A DNA stretch of 24,222 bases from a virus. Below the pieces are notes generated by a model. It did not search any database. It had not been told where the DNA came from and saw nothing but the letters and a program-made list of their open reading frames with translations. The translations under genes and the position numbers were made by a program. The stretch spans positions 1-24,222 of IMG/VR virus record IMGVR_UViG_3300025132_000291; one strand, given 5' to 3'. Of the stretch, positions 14,826 through 24,143 are shown in pieces. Position 1 is the first letter of the stretch. Each line of letters begins with the position of its first letter.

Positions 14826-14854
14826 ATTATAGCGTACTATGCTTCATCTGTCAG
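14826..14854 (-). promoter_or_regulatory. Sigma70-type promoter ahead of the small-gene cluster
   Basis: The minus strand reads CTGACA (14854-14849), exactly 17 nt, then TATAAT (14831-14826). That is 11 of 12 consensus bases with optimal spacing. The -10 box lies in the gap between the 80- and 62-residue genes and the -35 box in the last codons of the 80-residue gene. Cyanophage early genes are known to use host-like promoters; this one sits inside a late structural block. Confidence 0.5.
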
Positions 14855-15079
14855 GTCAGCTGTGACACTATAAAAAGCGTCTATAGCTCCACCACTAGCA
14901 TTTCGTACAATTACTTTCCTACCATAAGGAATGCTTTCAACAAAAAGTTCTTGATGAACAGCATTGGATGTCAGTTGAACATTGATCGATTCTGTATTGA
15001 TTCTATTGAACCAATCTTCAGGAAATTCAATAATCCCATCGAGTCTGACTCTTCCACGTAAATGGGTATGCTTTGCCAT
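14837..15079 (-). CDS. Stand-alone knob-domain paralogue (80 aa), virion-associated
   Basis: Residues 7-75 align along their length with residues 154-224 of the preceding 273-residue protein. RGRVRLDGIIEFPEDW matches RGRTRTNEITLPDYW, SINVQLTSNAVHQELFV matches SISVQLQPIGSHQNIIV, and IDAFYSV matches IDCFYHV. It lacks the upstream HPTKGEGHRLRHVSLEGPE linker, so it is the isolated beta-sandwich-like end domain. It probably arose by tandem duplication and truncation and may cap or decorate the same structure. A TATAAT at 15098-15103 has only a poor -35 (TGGGCA) 17 nt away, and no clear ribosome site precedes ATG 15079. Confidence 0.65.
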   Translation of the reverse strand: MAKHTHLRGRVRLDGIIEFPEDWFNRINTESINVQLTSNAVHQELFVESIPYGRKVIVRNASGGAIDAFYSVTADLTDEA

Positions 15080-15098: not shown

Positions 15099-15920
15099 TT
15101 ATAACACAGTCTTGGTGTTTTGCCCATAATTATATTGAGGATCATTATAATTTCTTTCCTCAAGTGGAACATTAGAGTTCTCATTAAAGTTTGGATCTGG
15201 ATAATCATATCTACCATTACCCTCATACTCAACAAGTAATGAATTCACATCTTTTCTTTCACCATATACATGGTAGAAACAATCTATTTTTTCAAGATAG
15301 TTATCAGACTCTATAATTATCTTCTCATTATCAAATTCTTTAACAATAATATTTTGATGAGAACCAATCGGTTGTAACTGAACAGAAATACTGTCAACAT
15401 GAACTAATTCTTTCCAATAATCTGGTAAAGTTATTTCATTTGTCCTAGTTCTGCCACGATAATAAACTCCAGATTCTGGTCCTTCTAGTGAAACATGGCG
15501 AAGTCTATGTCCCTCTCCTTTAGTTGGGTGTTGTATATCAAAAGGTTTCGCAGGTAATCCATCAGCAACTTTGTGTCTTGCTTCTAATCTACCTGTAGAA
15601 AGACAATCTACAGTACCAGTAACAAATACATTACCTACAATATTAACATGATTCGGTCCTTTCTTACCTAAAATATTGACATCACCCTCCACATCTACTG
15701 CACGTTCTTCTATCTTTGGTTTCCATACATCTATAGCAGTTCCAACATTCAGAGTTCCATTACCACTACCACTGTGACCACCTAGGTAACTTGGTCCAGC
15801 AACTGCTAATGTACCTTCAAATGGTTTATCACCATCCAAATATTTTATAGATCTATCATCCTTTGGCTCTTCATTGCCAATATAGACCTTATGTACATCA
15901 ACGTCTGGAATACCTGCCAT
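15099..15920 (-). CDS. Virion structural protein with SLEGPE/RGR C-terminal domain (273 aa)
   Basis: The N-terminal half (about 30-105) has short beta repeats (GTLAVAGPSYLGG, DVNILGKKGPNHVNIVGNVFVTGTV) like those of fibre stems. Residues 126-224 carry HPTKGEGHRLRHVSLEGPE, then YYRGRTR, LPDYW, SISVQLQPIG and IDCFYHVYGERKD. I know this arrangement from the ends of many phage fibre and baseplate proteins. The C-terminal 45 residues are Asn/Tyr/Pro-rich and probably disordered. The gene overlaps the needle gene by one base (TAATG) with AAGGA just upstream, tying it to the hub cassette. A structural role at the distal baseplate is inferred. It has a stand-alone paralogue directly downstream. Confidence 0.78.
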   Translation of the reverse strand: MAGIPDVDVHKVYIGNEEPKDDRSIKYLDGDKPFEGTLAVAGPSYLGGHSGSGNGTLNVGTAIDVWKPKIEERAVDVEGDVNILGKKGPNHVNIVGNVFVTGTVDCLSTGRLEARHKVADGLPAKPFDIQHPTKGEGHRLRHVSLEGPESGVYYRGRTRTNEITLPDYWKELVHVDSISVQLQPIGSHQNIIVKEFDNEKIIIESDNYLEKIDCFYHVYGERKDVNSLLVEYEGNGRYDYPDPNFNENSNVPLEERNYNDPQYNYGQNTKTVL

Positions 15921-16480
15921 TATCCTTCTCCTAATTGCAATGTATCTATGTAACTCTTGAGTGAACCTGGAATTAATTTAGATTTAGGTTCGTGTATTCT
16001 AACTACTTGACCAATAAGAATACTCCATCCAAATGAGTGTAATACTAATTTATCACTCGCTTGAACTGTTACATTTCCTTTACCTATAATGTTAACATTA
16101 TTCTTTGCTTCTACTTTAAAGTTATGCATTGCTGTAAGAGCAATATCTCCTCCTGGTTTTTTTGGATCCTCTCCACCCAAAGCATCCATGTAAATATTTT
16201 TTGCTTTGACTGAAAATGTTCCATCAACATCAATATTGAGATCACCCTCAGATTTTATATTAATTGGACCTGCACCCCTTTGTATTAGATTAGAACCCTT
16301 CTTATTATCAGTTGCTTGGATTTCCCATCCACCATCTTTGAATAACCTAAGAGAAGCAGCAGATCCTGAATTAACAGCAATCTCTGCAATTCTCACAGTT
16401 GCAGGGTCATCTTCCTCACCTATCCTGAGGCTACCATTCTCAGGATGATTAATTATAAATGGTGGAAATTTAGTACCCAT
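15920..16480 (-). CDS. Beta-helical spike/needle protein, gp5 C-domain-like (186 aa)
   Basis: From about residue 72 to 160 the sequence alternates hydrophobic and polar residues in short periodic strands (INIKSEGDLNIDVDGTFSVK, DIALTAMHNFKVEAKNNVNI, GNVTVQASDKLVLHS). This is the pattern of the intertwined triple beta-helix of T4 gp5 C-domain and VgrG needles. The N-terminal region (KFPPFIINHPENGSLRIGEE) may dock to the OB-fold hub protein encoded just upstream. In T4 this needle is part of gp5 and is released by proteolytic maturation; here it is a separate gene overlapping the hub gene by one base. It is predicted to form the trimeric membrane-piercing spike. No metal-binding HxH tip motif is seen at its C-terminus. 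Confidence 0.72.
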   Translation of the reverse strand: MGTKFPPFIINHPENGSLRIGEEDDPATVRIAEIAVNSGSAASLRLFKDGGWEIQATDNKKGSNLIQRGAGPINIKSEGDLNIDVDGTFSVKAKNIYMDALGGEDPKKPGGDIALTAMHNFKVEAKNNVNIIGKGNVTVQASDKLVLHSFGWSILIGQVVRIHEPKSKLIPGSLKSYIDTLQLGEG

Positions 16481-18561
16481 TAGTACCCCTTAGGACAATC
16501 AACAACTGTTAGAATCTGTGCATTGGCAACAACAGGATCAGAGTATTCTTCAACAGGTTTGAATATTGTTATTGGTTTAATAAATGCACCAAAACCTGTC
16601 TTAGTAATAACTGTAAGTTCAGGTATATCACCTAAACCAATGTCAACAATACCAGATACACCAGTTATTCTACCATCTTCTATCTCTGGTTCTAACCTAC
16701 CGCCATTAGAAGTCTCAATATAATCTCCTTTAACATATCCAGAACCAGTATTTACTACGTCTGCACCATCAACAGCACCAATTACTGCATCACCTTCTTC
16801 ACTACCTCCACCAAGATAACCACCTCCACCTTCATCCATAACAATCTTAATTACTTTACCATCTTTAAGTATTGCTCTACCAGTTGCACCTTTACCATTA
16901 TCACAATCATCTATGATTGTTACATATGGTTCTTCATCATATCCAAGTCCAAGATCTTCCATATTAGCACCAACAACCTTACCAGTTTCACTAACTACTG
17001 CTTTAGCAATAGCACCAATACCTCCACCTCCAAAGATCTCAATCCTTGGTGGTCCGCATTCTTTAGAACTGGTATTACATCCACCTAATTCTGAAGATCC
17101 CAAATCAGATAATGAATTTCCCATTCTAGTAACAGTTCCAGCAAGTCCTTTTACAGTAGCAACAGTCTCACCAATTTTACCTAATTGTGGTAATGCAGCA
17201 CCAAGAACACCACTAACACTCAAATCCATCTTACCTAATGATGCTGTTATACCGATCATTCTCTTGATATTCAATCCTTTCTTAAGAGAAGGACCAGAGT
17301 TAGTAGTCCAATCAGCTGGGTTAGGATCACAAGCAGATGGTTCACAACTTATAAGTTTCAATAATGATTGTGCAGCACCAAATGCCTTACCCAACATAGA
17401 TGAAAAATTAGGCATCTGAATACCACCCAACATACTCAAAGCAGCCATTGGACCTCCAATAAGCTTTTGAATTGTATTTGTTATCTTACTAAAGAGACCT
17501 CCAAGGAATTGTTCAGCAGCACATAAAGGGAAGCTAATAATTTTACCTATCAACCCTTTCAAAAACCCCTTTATAACATTCATCAATCCACTAAGCATAT
17601 TTTCCATCAAACAGTAAAGACCTTCTTTCTGCTTCAAAGCTTCAATTTTCTTAGTAAGATAGTCTGGTTTAAGCATATCAATAGCATCACCCAACTTCTC
17701 ATCAATCTTAGCGAATAACTGGGATCTTGTTGTTCTTATAACACCAGTCAGACCACCTGTTATCTTCTCAGAAACCTTTTCAATAATATTATTCATATCG
17801 ACTATTCTATTCAAAACTGGATCAAGAAATCCACCTTTTATCTGTTTCAATCCTTGGATTTTACTTATAAAACCTTGCATTTCCTTGGTTACATCTCCCA
17901 TAGCAATAGCAGGTGTATTACATAAAGTTGCCTTACGAACTTCAACTGGTAAATTATGGAAATGTTTAGTTACAGTTTTAACTAATGCACCTGATGATGA
18001 TATTACCTCTTGGTTCTGATTACTAAGTCCACCGCCCTTGAAAGGTTGCCCTTCATTAGTTGGTCTTACATTAGCACCTAATTGAGTTGTTGAACTACCA
18101 GTAGTAAGTTTTGGATCAACAGATATGGGCGAGAATCCAGAAGTACCTTTACTTATTACAGAATTCCAATCCTTTATACCAGTAATATTCTCATGTTGGT
18201 ATAATCCACCAAATATTACAGGTTGCTGTCCATCAAGTCCATCAAGGAAGAACCCAAAAACAGTCTCACCACCTTGTATTTGACTACTGACACCATGGTA
18301 ATTGACACCAGTACCCATTGTAGGAGGTACTAAGAAATGAGCCCAAGGTAATTCTTCATCTTTTACTATATCAAGATGTGGGTGTTTACCTAGTATTCTT
18401 ACCTTGGCTCTATAACCAAACTTCCTAGATTGTTTATCTGCATCTTTCTCTTTACCTGATTTATCGTCACGCCAAGCTTTATCAAGGACTACCTGGCCAA
18501 TAAACCAGTAAAATCCGTCTTCACCAACGTGCTTCTTATCAATAGATACAGATTCTAACAT
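16480..18561 (-). CDS. 5: Baseplate hub protein, gp5-like OB-fold with long helical and GSGY extensions (693 aa)
   Basis: Residues 15-125 fit the T4 gp5 N-terminal OB-fold: an FIGQVV strand, KVRILGKHPHLD (53-64), ELPWAHFLVPPTMGTGVN (70-87), and GGETVFGFFLDGLDGQQPVIFGGLY (97-121). T4 gp5 continues into a lysozyme domain, but no such catalytic motif is visible here. Instead, about 200-480 is a long helical, partly amphipathic region (for example LMNVIKGFLKGLIGKIISF, 326-344), and about 505-655 holds repeated Gly-rich beta modules (LGLGYDEEPYVTI, NTGSGYVKGDYIE). The protein should sit under the gp27-like ring and carry the needle encoded immediately downstream. Gene order gp27, small ORF, gp5 and 1-nt overlaps on both sides support the call. 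Eight Cys residues occur from 320 onward. Confidence 0.82.
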   Translation of the reverse strand: MLESVSIDKKHVGEDGFYWFIGQVVLDKAWRDDKSGKEKDADKQSRKFGYRAKVRILGKHPHLDIVKDEELPWAHFLVPPTMGTGVNYHGVSSQIQGGETVFGFFLDGLDGQQPVIFGGLYQHENITGIKDWNSVISKGTSGFSPISVDPKLTTGSSTTQLGANVRPTNEGQPFKGGGLSNQNQEVISSSGALVKTVTKHFHNLPVEVRKATLCNTPAIAMGDVTKEMQGFISKIQGLKQIKGGFLDPVLNRIVDMNNIIEKVSEKITGGLTGVIRTTRSQLFAKIDEKLGDAIDMLKPDYLTKKIEALKQKEGLYCLMENMLSGLMNVIKGFLKGLIGKIISFPLCAAEQFLGGLFSKITNTIQKLIGGPMAALSMLGGIQMPNFSSMLGKAFGAAQSLLKLISCEPSACDPNPADWTTNSGPSLKKGLNIKRMIGITASLGKMDLSVSGVLGAALPQLGKIGETVATVKGLAGTVTRMGNSLSDLGSSELGGCNTSSKECGPPRIEIFGGGGIGAIAKAVVSETGKVVGANMEDLGLGYDEEPYVTIIDDCDNGKGATGRAILKDGKVIKIVMDEGGGGYLGGGSEEGDAVIGAVDGADVVNTGSGYVKGDYIETSNGGRLEPEIEDGRITGVSGIVDIGLGDIPELTVITKTGFGAFIKPITIFKPVEEYSDPVVANAQILTVVDCPKGY

Positions 18562-18830
18562 TAATCGTCGTAAACTCTACATTCTAATGAATCAGGATGG
18601 TTGTCACAATAGACTTCAAGATGCTTATCTTCATGTCTTGTGTGCCAATCATTGATCTTTGCACCACCAGGATTCTCTTCATTCTCTTCATGAGCATGAA
18701 AAGCATCATTGTGCATCTCTAAATCTGCTTCACTATATTCAATCATGCCATGGTTGACATGTTCCTTATGATCCTTTGGATCTATATAGACCTCATGGTT
18801 TAGATCGTGTTGTGGAACTTTAGTAGTCAT
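18561..18830 (-). CDS. His-rich acidic small protein in the hub operon (89 aa)
   Basis: Twelve of 89 residues are His (8, 12, 21, 24, 27, 40, 45, 47, 63, 66, 70, 78), with about 24 Asp/Glu and two Cys (75, 84). The C-terminal part HTRHEDKHLEVYC...HP...EC places H63, H66, H70, C75, H78 and C84 as a plausible metal-binding cluster. No Gly-rich PAAR repeat is present, so it is not an obvious homologue of the T4 gp5.4 tip protein, though its size is similar. It lies 2 nt after the gp27-like gene and overlaps the gp5-like gene by one base, so it is probably a hub component or assembly factor. The family is not identified. Confidence 0.7.
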   Translation of the reverse strand: MTTKVPQHDLNHEVYIDPKDHKEHVNHGMIEYSEADLEMHNDAFHAHEENEENPGGAKINDWHTRHEDKHLEVYCDNHPDSLECRVYDD

Positions 18831-18832
18831 GT

Positions 18833-20113
18833 TTATGCATTTGCAGAAAATGAATCTCTTATGAGAGATAAACCAGTAAAATCACCAGTAGGGTGACCAA
18901 ACTCATGTGATAGTTTAGCTATCATCCATTTACCTGAATAAGGACTGTTACCTGGTTTAGTGTCCTCAGTATTTAGTTTAGGTACTGTGATCTCTATCAT
19001 AGTACCAACTTTGAGGTTGAAATTCATCGGGACAGTTATATCTAGTACAGATGAAAATAAAGATTGGTATCTTGCAGCCGAATGTGCTTGTCTCCAAGCA
19101 ATTGTTTCGGAATCAGGTACAGGAGTATCTTTCTTTGAGATTGCACCTAAGTCTAACACATTTAATAAAATACGAGAATATTTTTCGGAAATATCATGAG
19201 GAACTGACTTATCTCCCTCAGCAGTATCCTTTATACTACTATAGTCATACTCAATAAAATGAGGAGTACGCTTCATAATATCAAAGTACCAGTTTGCAGA
19301 CTTATATTGACCTATCCTAAGTTTCTTTATAATATCATGACTACTTGAAAATGATGGTATAGATTTAATAGTATAATTATCTGGTTTTAGTGGATTATTG
19401 AATGATTGTAACTGATATTCAACATATTTTGGTTTTGAACCCATCACCTCATCTATTGATATAAAATTATAACCATCAGTTTCATTTTCAAAAAATACAA
19501 ATCCCATACTACCCCCTGAAGCACTACTCTTTGAGGTTTGCTTACTAACAGATTTTGCTGCTAACCTATTACACAATTCAATAGGTCTAATAAAGTTACC
19601 CATAAAATCATACTTATTTGATGAGTCATGCCAAGTTCCCATCCTCTTCTTATCAACTTTAAGCACTTTCTTCAATATTGATTTAGCACTATCACTAGGT
19701 TTTCCTTTATATTTCTCAGGACATCTTGTAGTATGATTACTCAAAGTAGACTCAGTAACACACTGAAGTGTATACATTTCTCTCTTAGCTTCTCTAGTAG
19801 CACCAACAATTTCAGATATTATCAATCTATTCTTTTTCTTAGCAACAAATTCAAATGGTTCTTTTCTACTAGGATGGGTGATTACTAATTCAATAGCATC
19901 TCCACTCCTAATAGGTAAAGAATCAAGAAATCCATATGTATCACTACAGATTATATCAACTCTGACAGTATTTCCAACAGATTCCCAATACTTTATAAAC
20001 AAAAACTGACCATGAAAAGCATTACCACCATTTCCACTATTTTTGGTAAAAAGGGTAAAAGTCTCTAACTTATAACCAGATAACCAATTTTTCTTATCGT
20101 TACCTACAGTCAT
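18833..20113 (-). CDS. 27: Baseplate hub protein, gp27-like (426 aa)
   Basis: The length is close to T4 gp27 (about 390 aa). The N-terminal beta-barrel part (about 35-125) contains VRVDIICSDTYGFLDSLPIRSGDAIELVI and EMYTLQCVTESTLSNH. Next comes the hub-family element FIRPIELCNRLAAKSVSK (174-191) and a MGFVFFENETDGYNFISIDEVMG strand pair (203-225), typical of gp27/gpD-type hub rings, where an extended-fold domain reads 'P-x-E-x2-xxLa...F-F-E-x-x-x-G-Y-x-F'. The C-terminal third (VPMNFNLKVGTMIEITVP, KWMIAKLSHEF) fits a second barrel. It should form the trimer that joins the tail tube to the gp5-like spike. It overlaps the upstream gene by one base. Confidence 0.82.
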   Translation of the reverse strand: MTVGNDKKNWLSGYKLETFTLFTKNSGNGGNAFHGQFLFIKYWESVGNTVRVDIICSDTYGFLDSLPIRSGDAIELVITHPSRKEPFEFVAKKKNRLIISEIVGATREAKREMYTLQCVTESTLSNHTTRCPEKYKGKPSDSAKSILKKVLKVDKKRMGTWHDSSNKYDFMGNFIRPIELCNRLAAKSVSKQTSKSSASGGSMGFVFFENETDGYNFISIDEVMGSKPKYVEYQLQSFNNPLKPDNYTIKSIPSFSSSHDIIKKLRIGQYKSANWYFDIMKRTPHFIEYDYSSIKDTAEGDKSVPHDISEKYSRILLNVLDLGAISKKDTPVPDSETIAWRQAHSAARYQSLFSSVLDITVPMNFNLKVGTMIEITVPKLNTEDTKPGNSPYSGKWMIAKLSHEFGHPTGDFTGLSLIRDSFSANA

Positions 20114-21744
20114 TAGTTTGTAAGGTATCCTCCCATTTCAACATATTTAGAGGCAGAATCAGGGGATGATATATTAAAAGATTCAATATCACCTGATGTT
20201 ACTGGAATAATTTGAAAATTATTATCACCCTTTTGTACAGTTACTATATTATTATCACTCCCCTTAGGTAAAAATGGGTTTTGATCTGTAAAAAGGTTGT
20301 CTAGGTTCATCAGATTGGTATTACTATAGAAAGCACTCATCGTACCCATTCCAACAGTGTCCGAGAAGTTATAATCGAATCCAATTATAGAAGAAGAAAT
20401 ACCAGTAAAACTAGGGTCAAACCCTAAACTTTCAGTTGACAAGGGTAGATACTTCAATTTATCCTCTGGTGAGAGTTGATCCTTATGTACCCATCCTTTA
20501 TCATCTGTCTTAACGTATCCCATGTTTCTCATCACCTCTGGATGACCATCCATAGTTCCATCACCGAATGCCTGTGGATTGACCAACTCATTTACTAATA
20601 AAGAACCACCAAGAGCCCAAGGATTACTTAGTGCCATTCTTGCTTGACCAAGAAATCTTATAGTATCTTTTACTGTTTTTACGCTCTGCCTATCATTAAA
20701 TTCTGAAATAAAATTCTTTATCCTTTGTATATTAGGAGTAACATTTGTAATTTTCCTTGAATTCAATAACCTTGTCTGTTGTGGTGGTTTTAAGAATCTC
20801 TTAAAAGGATTTGGAAATCTGAATTGTCTAAAATTCTTATATCTAATCTGAGGAGGTAAGTTCACCCTTTTCCATGTTCTTGATGGTAATGGAGGAACTG
20901 TGGTGGATATATTCTTTTCTAATGTATAACCATAATAATCTTTACCCTCAACAACTGGAGGACCACCAACATACCTATCAAATTTACCAAGAACAATAGC
21001 AAATTTATCAATTGACTTACTAAAAGGTGTTTTAATCTTTGATGAATCAATCTCAGCAATATCTTCTTTACGTTTTTTATCTGCACCAGTAAACCAATCA
21101 GATATCCTAGAAGCACCAGATGCCCCTATCCAACCACCAATAAAAGAACCTATAGTACCACCAATAGCAGCACCAGGAATAGCACCTGCCCCAAAAAAGA
21201 AAGTACCAAGTGCACCACCAATAAACATTCCAACTTTCATACCTATTGCAGCACCACCAATACCACCAGCAACTCCACTAACTGATCCACTAATTGCTTG
21301 TGTTTGTGTTTGTCCTTCTTGTATTCTTGCAGTATAATCTAATCCACCTGCTAAGGTATTAAGAATAACATTACCCTTAGTGAACTTAAGACCCCTACTA
21401 GCATTAGTTAGATTTCGAGTATTTCTACTTGCATTACTAGCATTTCTAGTAAAATTAACAATATTATTAGCACCCCTTACATTACTAGGTTTAACTCCTC
21501 TTATAGATCTGAGTATACTGGGTGCAAAAGGCAATCCAACAAACAAACCAGTGTTTATGATACCATTGATAATGGTATTACCAGGAGACTTACTACCACT
21601 GGAAGCAAGTGTTTTATTTAATTTTCTATATGTTTCCTCCTTTTTCTTGAGAAGTTTTCTCTTGAGCCTTAGAGATTTATTCTCAAGTCTTGTTACTAAA
21701 GAATTCCTGTTTGATATTATTTTTGATAGTTTTAGTACTCTCAT
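20113..21744 (-). CDS. Glycine-zipper tail protein, tape-measure-like candidate (543 aa)
   Basis: The N-terminus is a strongly basic helix (about 5-45, RLENKSLRLKRKLLKKKEE) suited to coiled coil. A hydrophobic segment lies at 57-80. An Asn/Arg/Ser-rich repeat (NFTRNASNASRNTRNLTNAS) covers 97-116. A 60-residue glycine zipper (151-211) follows, with GMKVGMFIGGALGTFFFGAG and IGGTIGSFIGGWIGAS. Pro/Arg-rich linkers and a C-terminal beta-looking part end at MGGYLTN. Glycine zippers of this kind occur in membrane-active or tape-measure proteins. No gp29 sequence match is visible, but this gene or its upstream neighbour occupies the position next to gp27 where T4 keeps its tape-measure gene region. 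It overlaps the upstream gene by four bases (ATGA). Confidence 0.65.
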   Translation of the reverse strand: MRVLKLSKIISNRNSLVTRLENKSLRLKRKLLKKKEETYRKLNKTLASSGSKSPGNTIINGIINTGLFVGLPFAPSILRSIRGVKPSNVRGANNIVNFTRNASNASRNTRNLTNASRGLKFTKGNVILNTLAGGLDYTARIQEGQTQTQAISGSVSGVAGGIGGAAIGMKVGMFIGGALGTFFFGAGAIPGAAIGGTIGSFIGGWIGASGASRISDWFTGADKKRKEDIAEIDSSKIKTPFSKSIDKFAIVLGKFDRYVGGPPVVEGKDYYGYTLEKNISTTVPPLPSRTWKRVNLPPQIRYKNFRQFRFPNPFKRFLKPPQQTRLLNSRKITNVTPNIQRIKNFISEFNDRQSVKTVKDTIRFLGQARMALSNPWALGGSLLVNELVNPQAFGDGTMDGHPEVMRNMGYVKTDDKGWVHKDQLSPEDKLKYLPLSTESLGFDPSFTGISSSIIGFDYNFSDTVGMGTMSAFYSNTNLMNLDNLFTDQNPFLPKGSDNNIVTVQKGDNNFQIIPVTSGDIESFNISSPDSASKYVEMGGYLTN

Positions 21745-23243
21745 TGTGTAAACATTGCTGGAGTATTATAAGCTAATAAATTAGCAAGTCTATCAATAGA
21801 AATTCCATCAGTACCACCAAACGTAGTGGAAACAGTATGATCCACAGTTGCTGATCCAGATTCACTACCTTGAACAACTTGTCTAGTATTATTACCTGGA
21901 ACAGTCAGATCCACATTATTGACCTTGATCTGACCAGACTTATCAGCATTAAAACTCTTTACTAACTCCAAATATCTTTTATAACTATCATCGCCCTGTA
22001 TACCATGCCATTCTTTACCTAACTTATCAAAATCCCTTCTACTAAGGATATCCATAGGATTTACACCACGTTTTTTATGTATTAACCAAATTGCTAATTC
22101 ATTCTGTAATTTTTCATCAAAAACAATTTTACTAGGATCAAATTCTCTATTTTGAGCCTTATACATCTTCGCTACATCATGTAACGGATTCATGAATTGA
22201 TAAGCACCAACAGCAGTAGAAGTAATCTGTTTCCCATCTACCTCGAAAGTTGCTTCTCCTGACTTTATCCTTCTAGTTTGTTCATCATATATCTCCTTTA
22301 ATGTAGATCCAGTTATATTAAATGAATCATCACCACCAAAGAATGTATCATAGTTACCATTACTCTCTTTCTCTAAGATAAGTGATAATAAAGCCTGTGC
22401 TTCTGGATCATTTTCAAAGTCATCTGTAACCTGCTTCTTCACTTCAATTTTATCATCATCATCTTGCCATGGCCAAGTGAACATTGGTTTTTTAGGTTTT
22501 GCATAACCTGATGATGCCTCTTGTCTACCCTTCAAACCTTTATCAAGAATACGAGAAAATTTATCTACCTGAACATCAAACTGCTCAACGTCACCCTTAT
22601 TCATAACTATATTCTCATTAGGTGATGCATTTGCTGGATCACCACCAATCATACTCATGATAGTTGGTATAGCAAGTATAGCGGCTGCTGTAGCAATTAG
22701 TTTTGGATTTCTTAACCATTTCAAATTCTTTGCATTACCTGCCACATTTCCTGTTGGTACTCCTCTTTGTGGAATCAGCTTTCTTGCCATCATCCAATTT
22801 ACAACACCAGTTGTCACAAGTGGAAGCAACGTATCTGCGTTATTGACTAATCCTATACCTGCTCCTACACCAATATCAGATAATCCACCTGATATATCCC
22901 CTTCACCCAGTAATCTAATTCCATTAGCAACTGCAAGACCTGCAACAATATTACCAAGATTTACTAATCTATCTGCTAATATTCCAGTATTCTTTGAATC
23001 TTTCTTTATTAATTTCTCTTCTTCTCTAAAATATTTCTCTCTTGCTCTAATATCTCTTCTAACTTCGGTTCTCAAACCCTTCATCTCATTATTCATCCTC
23101 TCCATGTCAAGCATTATCTCGCCTAACTTTCTAGTCAACTTACCCCTACCTTCCTCGTCTGGTTGCAACTTAGCAGCAGCATTCCTCATCCTCTCCTCAA
23201 GAGGAGTCAATAATGGAGTTTTTGCTGTTACATTAGTAGCCAT
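21741..23243 (-). CDS. Tail-associated lysozyme/transglycosylase-like protein with coiled coil (500 aa)
   Basis: Residues 14-82 are highly charged and predicted coiled coil. Residues 88-155 and 180-201 (LIATAAAILAIPTIMSMIGG) are hydrophobic. A lysozyme-like domain covers about 278-428. It contains ILEKESNGNYDTFFGG, with E293 (or E291) as candidate catalytic Glu. It also has STAVGAYQFMNPLHDVAKMY (342-361) and DEKLQNELAIWLI (376-388). This order resembles the phage lambda R transglycosylase (SEGTDNG, YDVIVGG, GAGRYQLL). The C-terminal 70 residues are Thr/Ser/Gly-rich. It is predicted to cut peptidoglycan during DNA entry, supplying the activity that T4 keeps within gp5. Coiled coil plus membrane segments plus a lytic domain is also a common tape-measure architecture. 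It overlaps the 61-residue gene by 11 nt. Confidence 0.75.
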   Translation of the reverse strand: MATNVTAKTPLLTPLEERMRNAAAKLQPDEEGRGKLTRKLGEIMLDMERMNNEMKGLRTEVRRDIRAREKYFREEEKLIKKDSKNTGILADRLVNLGNIVAGLAVANGIRLLGEGDISGGLSDIGVGAGIGLVNNADTLLPLVTTGVVNWMMARKLIPQRGVPTGNVAGNAKNLKWLRNPKLIATAAAILAIPTIMSMIGGDPANASPNENIVMNKGDVEQFDVQVDKFSRILDKGLKGRQEASSGYAKPKKPMFTWPWQDDDDKIEVKKQVTDDFENDPEAQALLSLILEKESNGNYDTFFGGDDSFNITGSTLKEIYDEQTRRIKSGEATFEVDGKQITSTAVGAYQFMNPLHDVAKMYKAQNREFDPSKIVFDEKLQNELAIWLIHKKRGVNPMDILSRRDFDKLGKEWHGIQGDDSYKRYLELVKSFNADKSGQIKVNNVDLTVPGNNTRQVVQGSESGSATVDHTVSTTFGGTDGISIDRLANLLAYNTPAMFTQ

Positions 23244-23418
23244 GTTGGGCTTGTTGTGCTTCTAACTTTTGCTTTTCTAAAACACTGGTAAGGTACTTTA
23301 TATAAACTTCACGTTCCCAAGGAATCAGAGATTCTATATCAGTCAATGACCATTGATGATGATGCATGAGTGCAAAATTAACCTCAAGATACGTATCAAT
23401 AGACGTATGATATAGCAT
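23233..23418 (-). CDS. Small baseplate/tail assembly protein in the gp51 position (61 aa)
   Basis: The product contains MHHHQWSLTDIESLIPWERE followed by a Leu/Lys/Glu/Gln-rich helix. The W-x-L-x-DI-x-x-LIPWEREVY core recalls short tail-assembly or chaperone-type proteins of myoviruses. In T4, gene 51 (hub assembly catalyst) follows gene 26, so position suggests a gp51-type helper, but sequence alone does not prove it. ATG overlaps the gp26-like stop by one base, and its TAA lies 11 nt inside the next gene. It is more likely an assembly factor than a structural part. Confidence 0.6.
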   Translation of the reverse strand: MLYHTSIDTYLEVNFALMHHHQWSLTDIESLIPWEREVYIKYLTSVLEKQKLEAQQAQHGY

Positions 23419-24143
23419 TATCCGAAAAAATTGGATAGTCCCTCAATTACAACATCTGTTTCAACACCTGTATTAGGATTTTTCACTTTTGATTCATACT
23501 TCAATCTAGGCATGGTAGAGAAGAATGTTTCAATTTTCTGAAACTGAGCACTACTAAGATTTTCAATAAATTTGATCAACTCAGATGTAGTACAATCAGA
23601 TGCTGTCCATGCTTCCTCATCTGTGTAAATGGTATCAATGCAATTTGCTACTGCTTTGAATGCTTCATCCACTTTCTTAGTATCCTTCTCTTTTGCAACT
23701 GCAAAATTTTGTTCTAAGAACTCATTCATAGAAGGATATCTCATTTTGATTTTGATGTTACCACCAAGATCTATAGTATCATTATGATCTTCAGAACTAT
23801 CTAATCCAATATCAGATAAAGATATTGTTAGTGGAACTTGAGTTTCTCCATCATCTGTACAGGTTACCTGTAAATCTACTGTCTCTCCTACAGATTTTCC
23901 TCTAATATTCAAAAACAAATACTCAAGATCAAATGTAGGTAGATTATCCAATTTTATTCTTGTTATAAGGCAAGACTTCATAACTTCCTTGACAGTAGCC
24001 ATGATATCTTTAGTATTACCACTTTCAAGTGCTATTAAAAGTGCTTTCTCTTCCTTAACGAGAAATGGACGGTATTTTACTGGTTTACCTGTTGATAGTA
24101 AATTCAGTTCAAATGTCGGTGCAACGACCTTTGGTAAAGGCAT
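23418..24143 (-). CDS. 26: Baseplate hub protein, gp26-like (241 aa)
   Basis: The N-terminus MPLPKVVAPTFELNLLSTGK, the KYRPFLVKEEKALLIALESG stretch (19-38) and FDLEYLFLNIRGKSVGE (76-92) fit the T4 base plate protein family that contains gp26 (T4 gp26 is 208 aa). In T4, gp26 is needed to build the central hub. The protein has no signal peptide or membrane segment. A C-terminal helix-rich half (FIENLSSAQFQKIETFFSTM) ends at SNFFG. It is the first complete gene of a chain of overlapping hub genes and has a TAAATA-type late octamer about 21 nt upstream. No strong Shine-Dalgarno is seen before ATG 24143. Confidence 0.82.
   Translation of the reverse strand: MPLPKVVAPTFELNLLSTGKPVKYRPFLVKEEKALLIALESGNTKDIMATVKEVMKSCLITRIKLDNLPTFDLEYLFLNIRGKSVGETVDLQVTCTDDGETQVPLTISLSDIGLDSSEDHNDTIDLGGNIKIKMRYPSMNEFLEQNFAVAKEKDTKKVDEAFKAVANCIDTIYTDEEAWTASDCTTSELIKFIENLSSAQFQKIETFFSTMPRLKYESKVKNPNTGVETDVVIEGLSNFFG

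Follow-up and report, generated by a model that had tools for sequence, protein, structure and literature searches.

A tail-tip cassette of T4-like cyanophages with separate genes for the hub, the needle and a putative murein hydrolase

In phage T4, one protein, gp5, combines an OB-fold domain, a lysozyme and a beta-helix needle at the tip of the tail. Are these three functions also held on one chain in T4-like phages that infect marine picocyanobacteria and, if not, which protein might cut the host cell wall at entry? These questions are raised by a stretch of viral DNA of 24,222 nt (positions 1 to 24,222 of IMG/VR record IMGVR_UViG_3300025132_000291), hereafter called the window. The original prediction for this DNA had distributed an OB-fold hub, a needle and a lysozyme-like domain over three genes, and the window indeed contains three open reading frames (ORFs) at the expected places with the corresponding domain matches.

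The window is a fragment of a T4-like cyanophage that carries the central tail-tip cassette on the minus strand, where all cassette features described below are located. The cassette order is gp26, gp51, protein A (500 aa), protein B (543 aa), gp27, CP12, hub and needle, followed by a 273-aa protein of unknown function. The gp26-like baseplate hub protein (241 aa; 23418..24143) matches the Pfam family T4_baseplate (2.9e-69) and PHROG 150 (baseplate hub), and the gp51-like hub assembly catalyst (61 aa; 23233..23418) matches PHROG 634 (baseplate hub assembly catalyst; 7.5e-22). The gp27-like hub protein (426 aa; 18833..20113) is denoted by its match to PHROG 350 (tail protein; 4.2e-73) and by its conserved position in the cassette. 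The 273-aa protein (15099..15920), which is encoded directly 3′ of the needle and is conserved, matches PHROG 17490 (1.8e-51), likewise a family of unknown function. Adjoining it, an 80-aa ORF at 14837-15079 is a partial duplicate, with a match to PHROG 17490 that covers the C-terminal half of the family.

An identical order is annotated in Kyanoviridae isolates that include S-CAM9, S-SSM7, S-8S53 and P-TIM68 (in P-TIM68 without CP12). It was also read from an environmental comparison set of 80 loci retrieved by a hub profile, and the cassette is widespread among the Kyanoviridae sampled. The gene split is a rule for this phage group and no peculiarity of the window phage.

Several departures from the common layout were also observed. 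In some cassettes (L054:4962-6992, L066:2186-4189 and L070:1952-4126), gp51, A and B are replaced by one ORF of 660-725 aa that lies between gp26 and gp27, and S-CRM01 has kept gp51 but has one 864-aa ORF in the A/B position. In AG-345-D19 and a relative (L003:5423-7491 and L031:6402-8491), B is apparently divided between two ORFs of about 420 and 275 aa. Melnitz, in which the cassette is rearranged, and ORM_20, in which the hub is short (303 aa), were both compared for the origin of the split, and no evolutionary order emerged. A further observation concerns CP12, a Calvin-cycle regulator (89 aa; 18561..18830; Pfam CP12 1.7e-7, above the cut-off), whose gene is part of the hub operon, with gp27 on one side and the hub on the other. 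This family is matched by 64 ORFs of the retrieved loci, mostly located between the same two genes, and cp12 has been found near gp5 in some cyanophages (PMC3037559). A carbon-metabolism regulator is here a fixed member of an operon of late structural genes.

The gp5-like hub and its separate needle

The hub (693 aa; 16480..18561) matches PHROG 1922 (6.4e-86), and the N-terminal OB part leads in its matches to PHROG families of the gp5 type. The OB-fold domain comprises residues 1-120 (18202..18561). When a hub profile was compared with known structures, it matched T4 gp5 (1k28/1pdl) at residues 25-88 (3e-6), a match that is confined to the OB domain, and the central spike 9f4a (1e-8). Pfam Gp5_OB is present in 46 of 64 hub relatives, and the same domain scan found neither a lysozyme family nor the Gp5_C repeat family in any of the 64. 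For the window hub itself, searches of Pfam and of NCBIfam, in which there was no useful model, gave no match to a lysozyme domain. When T4 gp5 was searched against the same library as a positive control, Gp5_OB, Phage_lysozyme (1.3e-12), the Gp5_C repeats and the trimerisation domain were all recovered. The hub keeps only the OB domain of T4 gp5: it is a gp5 homologue by this domain and fails two defining features of a tail lysozyme.

The position that is occupied by the lysozyme in T4 gp5 corresponds to a helical region in the hub (residues 213-442; 17236..17925). An AlphaFold model based on an alignment of 64 sequences has long helices at residues 217-236, 256-293, 301-337, 348-379 and 386-404, and 10-residue blocks across residues ~217-404 mostly have pLDDT values of 60-89. 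Foldseek comparison of the hub model with the PDB gave no lysozyme among the top 50 matches listed, and no match of any kind was significant; low-confidence parts dominate such full-model searches, both here and for protein A. The original prediction that the hub contains no lysozyme is borne out by the 64 relatives, the T4 control and the model, which shows no lysozyme fold within residues 200-480 and mostly long helices at residues ~215-440. Further downstream, the GxGY beta-repeat region (residues 500-690; 16492..17064) is modelled as strands, with pLDDT about 80-92 over most of its length, and matches the structural-protein families PHROG 701 and 708. These repeats are common to other phage structural and baseplate wedge proteins, and PHROG 701 also matches a 1095-aa fibre protein of the window.

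Perhaps the hub itself cuts murein by means of a novel fold in its helical region, with the enzymes of A and B serving as accessories. Three cysteines in this region (C317, C347 and C406) are invariant or nearly so, and the structure search with the hub was too uninformative to speak against a new fold. However, the region is modelled as a few long helices, no hydrolase family is matched in the 64 hub relatives, and apart from the cysteines and a few glycines the sequence is poorly conserved. We regard a murein-cutting hub as very improbable.

As the original prediction held, the needle (186 aa; 15920..16480) is the product of its own gene downstream of the hub. An ORF that is separate from the hub and directly follows it is present in 68 of 68 loci, and in 65 of these it encodes 175-243 aa. 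The match to DUF2345 is weak (0.017), and the needle profile A9 matches the beta-helix stretch of the type VI secretion system (T6SS) protein VgrG (9e-8), with weaker matches to the other contractile-injection spikes Pvc8 and All3320. Because the needle is encoded separately, maturation cleavage would not be required to free it.

In the remaining three loci (L017:12182-14461, L020:12125-13348 and L022:12085-13302), the needle is the C-terminal end of a longer ORF (405-759 versus about 186 aa). The N-terminal extensions of these ORFs are charged or proline/glutamate-rich, and that of L017 contains an internal repeat. We considered whether a lytic domain is hidden in the enlarged ORFs and rejected this possibility, as the extensions are charged, proline/glutamate-rich or unmatched. 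The sole family match in the L017 ORF is in the needle part and is weak.

Protein A and the exchange of murein hydrolases

Protein A (500 aa; 21741..23243) has a helical hydrophobic N-terminal part, a GH104-like domain and a short C-terminal tail. It was in this protein that the lysozyme-like domain of the hub cassette had been anticipated, and matches to the expected kind of family were found. Residues 275-437 match PHROG 90, which is labelled 'endolysin' (2.7e-11). Profile A6, derived from 19 homologues, matches lambda endolysin (3d3d/1am7; 2e-9) over profile positions 9-157 of 160, and it also matches the lysozyme domain in the hub of phage A-1(L) (8kea; 2.5e-4). The domain, which resembles the GH104 lytic transglycosylase lambda R, spans residues 272-434 (21942..22430) and has homologues in 27 loci. 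Within it, Glu293 (codon 22365..22367) is invariant in 19 of 19 homologues and aligns with residue 19 of 1am7/3d3d. This residue is the catalytic E19 of lambda endolysin, and Glu293 is predicted to have the same role in A.

In the model of A, the blocks over residues 281-430 have pLDDT values of 81-91, and the remainder is helical and of low confidence. Hydrophobicity peaks at residue 182, and the C-terminus is conserved among relatives. A Foldseek search with the full-chain model returned nothing significant, with the lytic transglycosylase Cj0843 ranked first (E 0.44), and the GH104 assignment accordingly rests on sequence profiles. By these profiles, the domain qualifies as GH104 and A as a putative lytic transglycosylase.

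Among 4152 ORFs from 89 sources, 27 of 27 GH104 matches and 19 of 19 M23 matches are in the A/B slot (with the gene truncated at the edge of the locus in L015 and L033). Other families in the slot are Hydrolase_2 (L031, L038, L048, L057 and L074), SLT (L045), Phage_lysozyme2 together with VanY (L035), SLT_3 together with VanY (L036) and Amidase_2 (L080). At least 42 of 68 cassettes (33 + 9; near-identical pairs counted separately) have a recognised hydrolase in the slot, and eight families are represented. Mapping on the hub tree requires 15 or more changes for the GH104 state and 24 or more for the overall hydrolase state, counts that would be inflated by missed detections. Different enzymes are carried even by pairs that are close on this tree (L041/L074 and L035/L036). 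The names given by annotators of isolates are similarly diverse: chitinase and endolysin in S-H34 and S-N03, M15 peptidase and NlpC/P60 in S-CREM1, and lysozyme and carboxypeptidase in S-SCSM1. The A/B pair forms a slot for variable murein hydrolases, with enzyme types swapped repeatedly between phages, and it offers a defined place of exchange for putative entry enzymes.

Family and profile scans recognised no hydrolase in A or B in up to 26 of the 68 cassettes. Among the close relatives of the window phage, A and B have no recognised enzyme in L014, L017, L018, L020, L022 and L028. The same result was obtained for L012, a close relative outside the 68, with the GH104 and M23 profiles, the sole profiles applied there. 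In the enzyme-less close relatives, the rest of A still aligns. Either the enzyme is too diverged or has an undetectable replacement, or the module was lost or is dispensable, or the enzyme is encoded elsewhere in the genome.

These findings have a bearing on how gp5 is described in this group of phages. In many records of T4-like marine phages, gp5 is entered as 'baseplate hub subunit and tail lysozyme', a label that looks wrong for the cyanophage-type hubs examined. Furthermore, a comparison of pelagi- and cyanomyophages has ascribed gp5 divergence to adaptation to the host cell wall (PMC7029224). In phages with these cyanophage-type hubs, the A/B slot is the better place to look for such adaptation. 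In the open-licence papers that were searched, we found no statement that gp5 of marine T4-like cyanophages is without lysozyme or that the A/B slot is exchanged, and we make no claim of priority.

Presence in virions and a possible role inside the tail

Evidence that A and B are present in virions comes from S-CREM2 and S-SCSM1, which are relatives of the window phage. Published mass spectrometry detected ORF208 and ORF209 in S-CREM2 virions with 73 and 71 unique peptides (PMC10665884) and marked A and B of S-SCSM1 (gp158/gp159) as virion proteins (PMC9602691). The S-CREM2 authors proposed that ORF208 and ORF209 may be encapsulated in the capsid (PMC10665884), and the S-SCSM1 authors judged the A/B counterparts unlikely to be structural and possibly carried over (PMC9602691).

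It might be argued that A is a late lysis endolysin that is merely encoded in the hub operon and has no part in entry. Consistent with this, PHROG 90 carries the label endolysin and annotators name the A/B counterparts endolysins. However, these counterparts are in virions, with many peptides in S-CREM2 and as virion proteins in S-SCSM1, and their place between gp51 and gp27 never varies. In addition, the enzyme domain forms part of a long protein, helical and hydrophobic, whose C-terminus is conserved, and S-CREM1 has a separate gene annotated as lysozyme elsewhere. A function confined to late lysis seems improbable to us, if somewhat less so than a murein-cutting hub.

The best explanation overall, and one we consider probable, is that the hub and the needle do the puncturing and A and B supply the wall-cutting at entry, an activity that is predicted. 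The OB domain of the hub would sit on the gp27 trimer and, with the separate trimeric beta-helix needle, would form an enzyme-free puncturing tip, and the hub presumably needs no maturation cleavage. The wall would be cut by the GH104 domain inserted in A, which together with B makes up a pair of long helical proteins whose genes lie between those for gp51 and gp27. It is reasonable to speculate that A and B reside in the tail tube or the hub and are delivered at contraction, such that murein is cut at entry. The domain assignments, the split of the genes, the conservation of the cassette and the repeated exchange of enzymes are results of the computation. This explanation offers a candidate role for two large virion proteins that proteomes have listed as non-structural passengers.

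Protein B (543 aa; 20113..21744) is glycine-rich, hydrophobic and tape-measure-like, with matches to tape-measure and tail-lysin PHROG families over residues 83-313. No enzyme domain was found in B of the window. Its match to PHROG 167 (tape measure; 1.8e-6) extends over the glycine-rich hydrophobic stretch, and 18 of 59 B proteins match this family. No tape-measure family is matched by A of the window, and single A relatives match PHROG 9570 and 19487. By sequence, the tape-measure-like label is better supported for B than for A. Two parts of the original prediction need to be amended in this light. The 500-residue gene does precede gp27 in the cassette, but the gene for B (20113-21744) intervenes. 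Likewise, it was suggested that the enzyme may travel with a tape-measure-like protein. A does have the length, the helical character and the hydrophobicity for this, and two isolates carry its syntenic counterparts in their virions, but in the window it is B that the tape-measure families match.

A stronger claim, compatible with entry enzymes supplied by A and B, is that the two proteins together are the tape measure, such that tail length and the wall-cutting enzyme are set by one pair of chains. The T4 tape measure gp29 is encoded in the operon of gp51 and gp27, B proteins match tape-measure PHROGs as noted above, and B of S-SCSM1 is denoted as the tape measure in RefSeq. Moreover, by rank correlation over few, related points, the combined size of A and B rises with published tail length: 1655 aa and 138 nm in S-N03, 1671 aa and 129 nm in S-H34, 2007 aa and 165 nm in S-CREM1, 2081 aa and 173 nm in S-SCSM1, and 3021 aa and 418 nm in S-CREM2. 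P-SSM2 was also included in the correlation. However, tail length per A+B residue is not constant (0.077-0.138 nm), and enzyme domains add to the length of A and B. The single 864-aa ORF in the slot of S-CRM01 is found with a tail of 140-170 nm, and the virion proteins of S-CREM2 include another large one, ORF124 (about 2668 aa). With very few and related data points and a ratio that is not constant, we rejected tail-length scaling as proof of tape-measure identity and regard it as only suggestive.

The position near the site of T4 gp29, the PHROG matches of B and the growth of A+B with tail length suggest a role in the tail interior. We hold the identity of A and B as the tape measure to be possible, with the balance of our judgment slightly against it, and A and B are tape-measure candidates for T4-like cyanophages. 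The same tentative standing applies to the full proposal, in which T4-like marine picocyanobacterial phages would have an enzyme-free spike and would carry the entry enzyme on a two-chain tape measure (A and B) whose modules are exchanged between phages. If this is true, the same two proteins set the length of the tail and decide which wall chemistry is cut.

Comparison with known systems

The T4 tail-associated lysozyme gp5 (PDB 1k28) has a homologous N-terminal OB domain, its partner gp27 is nearby and a beta-helix needle exists in both systems. In T4, however, the OB domain, lysozyme and needle are on one chain that is cleaved, whereas the window hub is without lysozyme and the needle has its own gene. 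Lambda endolysin R (1am7/3d3d) shares a profile match over the whole domain with A, including E293 on E19, but it is a free 158-aa lysis enzyme, whereas the window domain is within a 500-aa protein of the hub operon.

Among cyanophages, the Anabaena phage A-1(L) is also contractile and has a central spike without an enzyme. Its hub ring protein gp15 (8kea; PMC10966104) itself carries lysozyme, endoglucanase and peptidase domains, whereas the window has the separate proteins A and B. The closest counterparts are gp158/gp159 of S-SCSM1 and gp208/gp209 of S-CREM2, which are syntenic with A and B, are annotated as murein hydrolases and are found in virions (PMC9602691, PMC10665884). These proteins were published as endolysins or as non-structural virion passengers, and we found no link there to a lysozyme-free gp5 or to a slot in which enzymes are swapped.

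A precedent for a cell-wall enzyme on a tail-interior protein is provided by tape-measure proteins with murein hydrolase motifs, such as that of mycobacteriophage TM4 (PMC1796659). TM4 is a siphovirus with a single tape measure, whereas in the phages considered here two chains are involved, the tail is contractile and T4-like, and the enzyme families are numerous and interchangeable. By analogy with these systems, the cassette might work like the T4 cell-puncturing device combined with a murein hydrolase that is carried in the tail.
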